Assembly (NCBI GenBank): GCA_947477565.1
Contig: CANJUR010000016.1
Span: 1 to 64,000, forward strand
DNA: 64,000 nucleotides
From: Deltaproteobacteria bacterium
Lineage (GTDB): Bacteria; Myxococcota_A; Polyangia; Polyangiales; Ga0077539
Direction: 5' to 3'
Shown piece after piece: positions 61,043 to 64,000 of the stretch. Position 1 is the stretch's first letter. Every line of letters starts with the position of its first letter. A program made the position numbers and the translations under genes. The notes beneath the pieces are model-generated. The model was not told where the DNA came from. It searched no databases and saw only the letters and a list, made by a program, of their open reading frames with translations.

Positions 61043-61825
61043 CTACCGCCCCGTCCAAACCGGCGTGCGCTTCTCGAGGAAGGCCGCGATGCCCTCCCGC
61101 GCGTCGTCCGTCGAGAGCAACTCGGCGAGCGCGTCGCGCAGCATCGGGAGCGACTGCTCCATCGCCATGTCTCCCTGCCGTGCCCACGCCTTGAGCCCGT
61201 GAGACATCGCCGTCGGCGACCTCGCGGCCAGTTCGCCCGCGAGCGCTTCCACTGCGGCGTCGAGCGCATCGGCAGGCAGCACCCGGTTGAGCAACCCCAG
61301 ACGCTGCCCGTCCAGCGCCGAGAGCTTCTGCCCAAGCAGCATCAACTCCAACAGCGGGCGTCGGGGCACCACGCGGGAAAGCACCGCCATGATCATCATC
61401 GGAAATAATCCCCGATGAATCTCCGGCGTCCCGAGCACCGCGTCGTCGGCCGCGAGCGCAAAGTGCGACGCCGCCACGAGGCCGAGCCCGCCGCCCATCG
61501 CCGTGCCGCGAACCTTCGCCACGATGGGCTTCGGCGATCGCACCATCGCCAGGAGAAGGTCGGCGTAGTCGCCCTTGAAATCGATTCCGTCGCCCTCCCC
61601 GGACATCTGGCCGATGTTGCCGCCCGCGCAGAAGTGACCGCCCGCGCCGGTGAGCACCAGCGCCCGCACGTCTGCATCCTCGGCCACCCGCGCGAGCACG
61701 TGCAGAAGCTCATTGGCCATCTCCGGGCCGATGGCGTTGCGCTTCGTCGGGACGTTGAGCGTCGCAGTCGCGATGGCGCCGCCCTCAACCCCATGCGTCT
61801 CGTACGTCAGCGTGCGAAACGTCAT
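61043..61825 (-). CDS. Enoyl-CoA hydratase/isomerase family protein
   Basis: The 260-residue crotonase-fold enzyme has the oxyanion loop GAGGHFCAGGNIGQMSG and the second segment GTAMGGGLGLVAASHFALA, with the acidic residue in GTPEIHRGLFPMM. It acts on short acyl-CoA thioesters; the exact reaction cannot be read from the motifs. The start overlaps the BKACE gene stop by ATGA, so it is co-translated with it. Confidence 0.92.
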   Translation of the reverse strand: MTFRTLTYETHGVEGGAIATATLNVPTKRNAIGPEMANELLHVLARVAEDADVRALVLTGAGGHFCAGGNIGQMSGEGDGIDFKGDYADLLLAMVRSPKPIVAKVRGTAMGGGLGLVAASHFALAADDAVLGTPEIHRGLFPMMIMAVLSRVVPRRPLLELMLLGQKLSALDGQRLGLLNRVLPADALDAAVEALAGELAARSPTAMSHGLKAWARQGDMAMEQSLPMLRDALAELLSTDDAREGIAAFLEKRTPVWTGR

Positions 61826-62682
61826 CGCGAGAGCCCCAGCATCGCCCGCGCCTCATCGACCGTCGCCACCGCGCGGCCGATGTCACGGGTCATCTGGACA
61901 CCCTTCTCCACAAGCTCGCCGTTGGAGCGCGCCATGGTGCCGTCGGGCAGATAGAAGTTGTCCTCCAGGCCGACGCGGATATTGCCGCCCAGGGTGAGCG
62001 CCGCCGCGCAGAGCGACCACTGATCGCGTGAAATACCCACCACCTTCCACGTCGATCCGGCAGGAACCTGGTCGGCCATGAACGCGAGGTGCTTCGCGCT
62101 GGCCTTCACCCCGCCGATGACCCCCATCACCAGGGAGAAATCGAGTGGCGGCTTGAGCAGACCCATCTCGATGAGCGGCTCGGCGGAGCACACGTGCCCC
62201 GTGTCGAAGCACTCAAGCTCGGGCTTCACTCCGCTCGCGTTCATCTTCGTGAGCAGCTCGGCGATGTAGTCGAAGCTGTTCTCGAAGACGAAGTTGAAGA
62301 CCCATGCCTTCTTCTTCGCGTTGTACTTCGCGTAGTTCATCGAGCCCATGTTCAGCGCCGCGATCTCCGGCCGGTAGTCCGTCACGTGAGGCGCCTTGCG
62401 GCCCTCCGGGTCGATGGTCCCGGTGGAGAAGTTCAGGATGATCGGGCACGCCGCGCGGATCGCGTCGCCGATCGCCCGGTAGCGCCCCGCGGTGTAGTCC
62501 GGCGCGCCGTCGTCCGTGCGCGCGTGGATGTGCAGCACCGACGCCCCGGCGTCGTAGGCCCGCTTCGCCTCCGCCGCAAACTCCTCCACCGTGTACGGAA
62601 TCGCTCCGCACTGCGCCCGCGTAGTGACCACGCCGCTCATCGCGCACGTGATGATGACCTTCTCGTTTGTCCCTCGGCTCAT
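61822..62682 (-). CDS. BKACE-family beta-keto acid cleavage enzyme
   Basis: The 286-residue zinc enzyme of the beta-keto acid cleavage family condenses beta-keto acids with acetyl-CoA to form acetoacetate and a new CoA thioester. The founding member cleaves 3-keto-5-aminohexanoate in lysine fermentation. Ligand-type motifs are VLHIHARTDDGAPDY and CFDTGHVCSAEPLIEMG. The start at 62682 was chosen since the longer ORF reads through the upstream lipoprotein gene antisense frame. It is co-translated with an enoyl-CoA hydratase. The true substrate is unknown. Confidence 0.9.
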   Translation of the reverse strand: MSRGTNEKVIITCAMSGVVTTRAQCGAIPYTVEEFAAEAKRAYDAGASVLHIHARTDDGAPDYTAGRYRAIGDAIRAACPIILNFSTGTIDPEGRKAPHVTDYRPEIAALNMGSMNYAKYNAKKKAWVFNFVFENSFDYIAELLTKMNASGVKPELECFDTGHVCSAEPLIEMGLLKPPLDFSLVMGVIGGVKASAKHLAFMADQVPAGSTWKVVGISRDQWSLCAAALTLGGNIRVGLEDNFYLPDGTMARSNGELVEKGVQMTRDIGRAVATVDEARAMLGLSR

Positions 62683-62722
62683 CGCAGTCTCCGATCTTCG
62701 TGTGATGTGTCTCGCGCGGCCC

Positions 62723-63343
62723 TCACGGACAGCCCTCGTCTCTCGTCCCGTTGCAGTTGTCGTCGAGCCCGTTGGCGCAGATCTCCGCCGTCCGCGGAAC
62801 CACCTGGCCGACGCACAACGGTGTGCTGCCGCCCTCGCAGCGCTGCATCCCCTCGTGGCAAACCCCCACCCCCCGCGTCGCCATCGGACCCGTGTAGCAC
62901 TGGGCCCCCTGGATGTTGTCCACCGCGCCGTCGCAGTCGTCGTCGATGGTGTTGCACACCTCCCCCTGCGGCCGTGTCTCGCCGTTGCATTGCACCCCCC
63001 AGCGCGCTCCCACGCACCGCTGAAACCCATCCGCGCAGAGCCCCACACCCCGCGTCGCCGGGAGCCCCGTGTAGCACCCGCGAGTCGTCCCCTCGACGCA
63101 CGTCCCGCTGCCCACCTCGCCGCTCGGGCGATCGACCGGCACGTCCACCGAGACCTCCGCACCGACGTCGGTCCTGGCAGGGAGGATGTCCTCGGGCGCG
63201 CCGAGATCCGTACCGCCGGCGTCCAGGTCGGTGAAGGTTCCGCCGGCGTCCAGGTCGGTGAAGGTTCCGTCGGCCTCCGATGCGGTCGCGCAGCCCGACG
63301 CGGCAGTGAAGAGAAGCGCCGCAGCGAGGGTGCATCGAAGCAT
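62723..63343 (-). CDS. Lipoprotein with MopE-like metal-binding repeats
   Basis: The 206-residue product has a lipobox (LLFTAASGC) and the tether GTFTDLDAGGTFTDLDAGG. Two Cys-rich repeats follow (RGCYTGLPATRGVGLCADG and AQCYTGPMATRGVGVCHEG), each ending in an Asp/Asn/Cys loop (EVCNTIDDDCDGAVDN, EICANGLDDNCNGTRDEGC). The D-x-D-C-D-G loops match the putative metal-binding motif of MopE-type proteins. Calcium or copper binding is plausible. It is upstream of the BKACE operon on the same strand. Confidence 0.85.
   Translation of the reverse strand: MLRCTLAAALLFTAASGCATASEADGTFTDLDAGGTFTDLDAGGTDLGAPEDILPARTDVGAEVSVDVPVDRPSGEVGSGTCVEGTTRGCYTGLPATRGVGLCADGFQRCVGARWGVQCNGETRPQGEVCNTIDDDCDGAVDNIQGAQCYTGPMATRGVGVCHEGMQRCEGGSTPLCVGQVVPRTAEICANGLDDNCNGTRDEGCP
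63214..63267. repeat. Two 27-base direct repeats encoding a lipoprotein tether
   Basis: Two exact tandem copies of a 27-base unit beginning CGCCGGCGTCCAGG encode GTFTDLDAG twice in the linker after the lipobox of the MopE-like lipoprotein. Identity of the copies suggests recent duplication. Confidence 0.85.
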
Positions 63344-63461: not shown

Positions 63462-64000
63462 ATGACGCGATCGCGATCGACGGGGCAGCGGACGTTTCGC
63501 ATCGCCCTCGCACTCGGGGCCCTCAGCCTGCTTTCATCCGGCTCCGCGGACGCCCACTTCATCCTTCGCGAGCCCGCTTCGTGGATGTCCCAGGACGTGC
63601 TCGGCAGCCCGCAGAAACTCGGCCCCTGCGGCAGCGAACCCGGCGGCACCCCCACCGGAACCATCACCGCCGTACAGGCCGGTTCGACCCTCACCGTCAC
63701 CATCACCGAGACCCTCTTCCACCCAGGGCACTACCGCATCGCGCTCGCAACCAACGACCGCAGCGATCTCCCCGCGGAGCCCGTCGTCACCCCGGGCGCA
63801 GCCACCCCCTGCGGCAGCGTCGTCATCCAGGATCCGCCCGTCTTCCCCGTGCTCGCCGATGGCGTCTTCCTGCACACGCGCCCCCTCAGCGGACCGCAGA
63901 CCCTCGAGATCACCCTCCCGCCCAACGTGACGTGCACCCACTGCACGCTCCAGATCCTTGAGTTCATGTCGAACCATGGACTCAACAACCCCGGCGGCTG
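63462..64000 (+). CDS. LPMO-like copper protein, SCE4755-type (truncated by window)
   Basis: At least 179 residues are visible; the gene runs off the right edge without a stop, so the ORF track missed it. A signal peptide (ALALGALSLLSSGSADA) ends directly before HFILREPASWM, placing His at the mature N-terminus as in the copper-binding histidine brace of lytic polysaccharide monooxygenases. A second conserved His-rich segment is ETLFHPGHYRIALA. CTHCTLQILEF has paired Cys, and SNHG follows. The pattern matches the SCE4755-like family of polysaccharide monooxygenase-like proteins found in myxobacteria. Activity is unproven. Confidence 0.75.
   Translation, partial: MTRSRSTGQRTFRIALALGALSLLSSGSADAHFILREPASWMSQDVLGSPQKLGPCGSEPGGTPTGTITAVQAGSTLTVTITETLFHPGHYRIALATNDRSDLPAEPVVTPGAATPCGSVVIQDPPVFPVLADGVFLHTRPLSGPQTLEITLPPNVTCTHCTLQILEFMSNHGLNNPGG

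Follow-up and report, generated by a model that had tools for sequence, protein, structure and literature searches.

A myxococcotal SCE4755-family protein with an LPMO-like fold, invariant brace residues and a MYXO-CTERM sorting tag

Lytic polysaccharide monooxygenases (LPMOs) frequently carry an axial Tyr and leave free the copper-site position at which X325 proteins have an additional ligand, an Asp from a Gly-rich loop (PMC7529816). BIM1, in turn, is a GPI-anchored fungal copper-acquisition protein (PMC10952591). Proteins that end in a MYXO-CTERM tag are thought to be lipidated on Cys, cut by a myxosortase and displayed at the cell surface, a processing that was shown with MrtX and TraA rather than with MrtC (PMC11980579). 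Here, we describe a protein with features of all these systems, encoded at the end of the window, i.e., the whole stretch of 64,000 nucleotides that was analyzed, which belongs to contig 16 of a 6.65-Mb genome. The protein is assigned to the SCE4755 family, for which our literature search found no paper using the name; we know of no assay of any member. The window protein adds a member to a known family that is apparently uncharacterized.

An earlier note, made from the window alone, had recognized an LPMO-like gene running off its end. The frame indeed opens at 63462 on the forward strand and is still open at 64000; read along the whole contig, it stops at base 64241, and the full gene thus retrieved encodes 259 amino acids. 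In a protein scan the product scores 110 bits against NF043005, the curated model “SCE4755 family polysaccharide monooxygenase-like protein” (cut-off, 75), over positions 14 to 145 of a profile of 146, and the genome search gives 118 bits for the gene, bearing out the SCE4755-like assignment of the earlier note. This score against a curated family, together with the invariance of residues across phyla described below, excludes a chance resemblance.

A scan of GTDB contigs recovered 29 relatives, mostly from Acidobacteriota and some from Alphaproteobacteria, with one also found in a Marinimicrobia MAG and a closer one in a “delta proteobacterium”. The member from a MAG titled Bordetella parapertussis (L024) is very near to one from Bryobacterales, and the title looks wrong. 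The family is present in 68 of the 379 Myxococcota genomes searched, and among the 13 genomes of the window's own taxonomic family it occurs only in that of the window. A quick tree of 75 domains, in which several deep forks are weak, resolves two subfamilies and places the window protein in the one with acidobacteriotal and alphaproteobacterial members. Both subfamilies are found within one genome in some Myxococcota (L044 and L083 in genome G362).

Table 1. Positions of the SCE4755-family gene, its parts and its neighbors
Feature	Position	Strand	Basis or remark
Enoyl-CoA hydratase, beta-keto acid cleavage enzyme, ordinary metabolic	61043-62683	-	PF05853 for the beta-keto acid cleavage enzyme
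Small protein resembling a lipoprotein, with a metal-binding motif of the MopE type	62723..63343	-	PF11617, 39 bits; divergent neighbor
SCE4755-family gene, part in the window	63462..64000	+	NF043005; full gene, contig 63462-64241 (L003:7463-8242:+)
Predicted Sec signal peptide of 31 aa, cut between SADA and H	63462..63554	+	Leader features; arrangement in relatives
His1, N-terminal residue of the predicted mature protein and first half of the putative histidine brace	63555..63557	+	Invariant in 75/75
LPMO-like beta-sandwich domain, residues 1 to ~160	63555..64000	+	AlphaFold2, Foldseek; ends at about contig 64034, outside the window
His56, second brace histidine (FHPGHYR)	63720..63722	+	Invariant in 75/75; pairs with His91 of TdAA15A (5msz)
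Axial Tyr151 codon	contig 64005-64007	+	Past base 64000
MYXO-CTERM tag	contig 64143-64238	+	TIGR03901; past base 64000
WYL/WCX-type regulator	L003:8239-9258		Convergent, downstream

The leader of the protein displays a basic n-region, a hydrophobic core and an A-x-A motif ahead of the His. With the cleavage site predicted by eye and from conservation among relatives to lie between SADA and HFILREP, the mature protein would begin with His1, as the earlier note had proposed, and a signal-peptide-like leader precedes this residue in all 75 aligned relatives. Across the 75 domains, His1, His56 and Tyr151 show no variation, nor do Lys21, Pro24, Cys25, Gly26, Arg61, Pro122, Cys127, Cys130, Gln133, Met138, and Cys154, while Glu52 is kept in 74 (conservation was also computed on an earlier alignment of 58 sequences). 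The segment FHPGHYRIAL (63717-63746, +) had been credited with additional His. We observe that His56 would provide the second brace His, whereas His59, the second His of FHPGH, is His in 62 of the 75 domains and was rejected as a copper ligand because it varies.

A PDB search with the family profile yields matches to AA15 (5msz, E = 1.5e-5), AA13 (7e-5) and, weakly, AA9. In the profile alignments, along which positions were counted by hand, His56 pairs with His91 and Tyr151 (the Tyr of YxxC) with Tyr184 of TdAA15A (5msz), both of them established copper ligands of that enzyme. In the copper-site geometry deduced from this pairing, the brace and the axial Tyr would thus sit where an LPMO has them. 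The near-invariant Asp102 was considered as an X325-type ligand, a role that seems improbable given its alignment with the Asp of the LADG motif of AA15. Twelve myxococcotal members of the window protein's subfamily carry Cys149 (codon 63999-64001 in the window protein), and 11 of them have Cys86 (codon 63810-63812) as well; this clade-specific pair probably forms a third disulfide pinning the loop beside the axial Tyr.

The structure prediction that had been suggested as a check returned an LPMO fold. An AlphaFold2 model computed with 58 relatives (pLDDT, 95.2; pTM, 0.89) has its best Foldseek matches in the PDB among AA15 enzymes (E = 2.8e-5), followed by AA11, AA9, and AA10 LPMOs, with E values from 2.8e-5 to about 1e-3 and modest TM-scores of 0.4 to 0.6. 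A second model, of the more BIM1-like relative L034, likewise finds AA15 (6e-7) and AA10 first. The features of the LPMO class (CAZy AA9-AA17), i.e., a predicted N-terminal His, a second brace His, an axial Tyr and an immunoglobulin-like beta-sandwich fold, are all present, and the match to the LPMO copper site that the earlier note had drawn extends to both fold and ligand residues, with AA15 as the best fit. Neither of the results that the earlier note had named as speaking against its reading, a cleavage site predicted elsewhere or a site lacking a second His, was obtained. We consider it very likely that the window protein is a copper histidine-brace protein with an LPMO fold.

Following the domain, the protein continues with a linker of 30-odd residues rich in Asp, Ala, and Ser, after which come NGCGC, a hydrophobic stretch and a run of five Arg (RRRRR). 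The MYXO-CTERM model TIGR03901 (cut-off, 20) gives 28.2 bits when the genome is searched and 24.1 bits in the protein scan, and the genome contains about 40 MYXO-CTERM matches and encodes the myxosortase MrtC (208.8 bits; cut-off, 195). The features of a MYXO-CTERM protein, namely the Cys motif, transmembrane helix, Arg cluster, model score and a myxosortase in the same genome, are thus found together, and judging from this tag and the encoded myxosortase, the protein is probably lipid anchored on the cell surface. Of 31 mostly myxococcotal members, 15 match TIGR03901 at E ≤ 0.01, and most of the others have a similar tail by eye, while the acidobacteriotal members stop shortly beyond the domain. 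In one myxococcotal member (L054:1213-1908), a dockerin-like tail stands in place of MYXO-CTERM, at 21.8 bits against PF00404, slightly below its cut-off of 22.9. Alphaproteobacterial members L016, L021, L023, L025, L027, and L029 carry a lysine-rich, KAKGKKKS-like tail and no anchor. Carbohydrate-binding domains, which the earlier note had advised looking for, were absent from the window protein in a Pfam scan; a carbohydrate-binding module was rejected, the tail consisting of the linker and MYXO-CTERM.

An all-against-all comparison of neighboring frames found no neighbor gene conserved across relatives. What recurs is the family itself, frame shadows, broad families and clusters from near relatives, and a conserved operon was rejected. 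Neighbor genes were called with a rough GC3 score, by which the target gene was missed in about 20 loci. In a Pfam scan of 92 adjacent genes we observe no enrichment of copper genes or CAZymes. A copper link through the divergent MopE-like neighbor was rejected, as its motif is common in the genome: with 87 PF11617 matches genome-wide, and 2 among the 92 scanned neighbor genes, its position is probably due to chance, and the gene is probably an ordinary member of this abundant motif group unrelated to the SCE4755 gene. It contains an in-frame tandem repeat, with TFTDLDAGG occurring twice. Neither a PF03067 match nor CopC or a GH18 chitinase turned up in the whole genome, which has one weak match to GH5; these absences are soft because the assembly is 93% complete. 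A nutritional role on chitin or cellulose accordingly has little support, and the genomic context supports neither such a role nor a copper operon.

This context bears on two further explanations. An idle or repurposed LPMO fold, serving as a carbohydrate-binding or structural protein at the surface with copper incidental, would agree with the lack of conserved operon partners and with the scarcity, in the families searched, of enzymes dedicated to glycan degradation. However, that His1, His56, and Tyr151 never vary in 75 divergent sequences would be surprising if no metal site were under selection, making an idle fold improbable. We give an equally low probability to an LPMO-like oxygenase acting at the cell surface on a protein, lipid or small molecule: nothing positive points to any such substrate, even though the compact domain lacking a binding module and the neighborhood lacking CAZyme enrichment would suit it.

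The main rival to the LPMO reading is a copper-acquisition or -delivery protein at the surface, a bacterial counterpart of BIM1/X325 that would bind copper without cutting polysaccharide. It finds support in the relatives, 36 of 58 of which match the BIM1-like model PF20238 at E ≤ 0.1, with L034 reaching 43.5 bits against a cut-off of 27; 31 of the 58 match PF03067 (LPMO_10), and some lie above both curated cut-offs. The window protein itself, however, has no PF20238 match at E ≤ 0.1 (gathering score, 27), and LPMO_10 is the only one of the two that it matches, below the cut-off of 23, at 15.6 bits for the full protein and 17.3 bits for the mature domain. A genome-wide search with PF20238 gave no match, and as its controls also gave none, it is uninformative. 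The putative lipid anchor resembles the GPI anchor of BIM1 (PMC10952591), and the absence of GH18 from the genome also agrees with copper acquisition. On the other hand, SNHGLNNPGGCFYHHC (residues 138 to 154), the presumed counterpart of the X325 loop as judged from PMC7529816 and the X325 motif, holds no Asp. The Tyr is invariant, no X325 entry is found among the 50 matches listed in either fold search (window protein or L034), and the adjacent genes are not enriched in copper genes. On balance, the LPMO reading is favored over a copper carrier, which we regard as rather unlikely.

Our best overall explanation, which we hold with moderate confidence, is a surface-anchored copper oxygenase of the LPMO type that nicks polysaccharide. 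A single-domain LPMO-fold protein would be exported by Sec, trimming would leave His1 at the N terminus, and the genome's myxosortase would act on the MYXO-CTERM tag to yield a lipid anchor on the outer cell surface. While the family, the invariant ligand residues, the fold and the anchor signal are computed results, we infer that one copper ion would be chelated by His1, through its amino group and side chain, and by His56, with Tyr151 as the axial residue and one of the equatorial sites free for O2 or H2O2. The resulting oxygenase or peroxygenase would nick polysaccharide on the cell surface, prey or particles, with surface, envelope or prey glycans as possible substrates. LPMO-type catalysis on a polysaccharide, taken by itself, appears more probable than not.

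At the level of the family, we tentatively suggest that SCE4755 may be a bacterial histidine-brace class lying between LPMOs and BIM1/X325, brought by MYXO-CTERM to the surface of myxobacterial cells, and acting there as a tethered LPMO that targets glycans of prey or envelope or as a copper-acquisition factor. The window protein offers a clean example of a curated family found in Myxococcota, Acidobacteriota, Alphaproteobacteria, and others, and settling its function, glycan cutting or copper handling, would provide an answer for the whole family and probe whether LPMO-type oxidants are tethered by bacteria to their own surface. New here are the MYXO-CTERM sorting tag at its C terminus and the myxosortase in its genome.

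Compared with the NF043005 family at large, the window protein has the same invariant His1, second His and Tyr and the same Cys pattern, to which it and its myxococcotal neighbors add an extra cysteine pair. It shares the N-terminal His brace and surface anchoring with BIM1/X325, whose PF20238 model many SCE4755 relatives match, but differs in escaping that model, in its conserved axial-type Tyr and in having no Asp in the presumed counterpart of the Gly-rich loop. With AA10 (PF03067) it has the fold and brace in common, and its near relative L060 lies above the Pfam cut-off at 37 bits. The best match in both sequence profile and fold is AA15, represented by TdAA15A of Thermobia (5msz), with which it shares the LADG and CxxCxLQ motifs at about 20% identity, while being a smaller, bacterial domain anchored by MYXO-CTERM.
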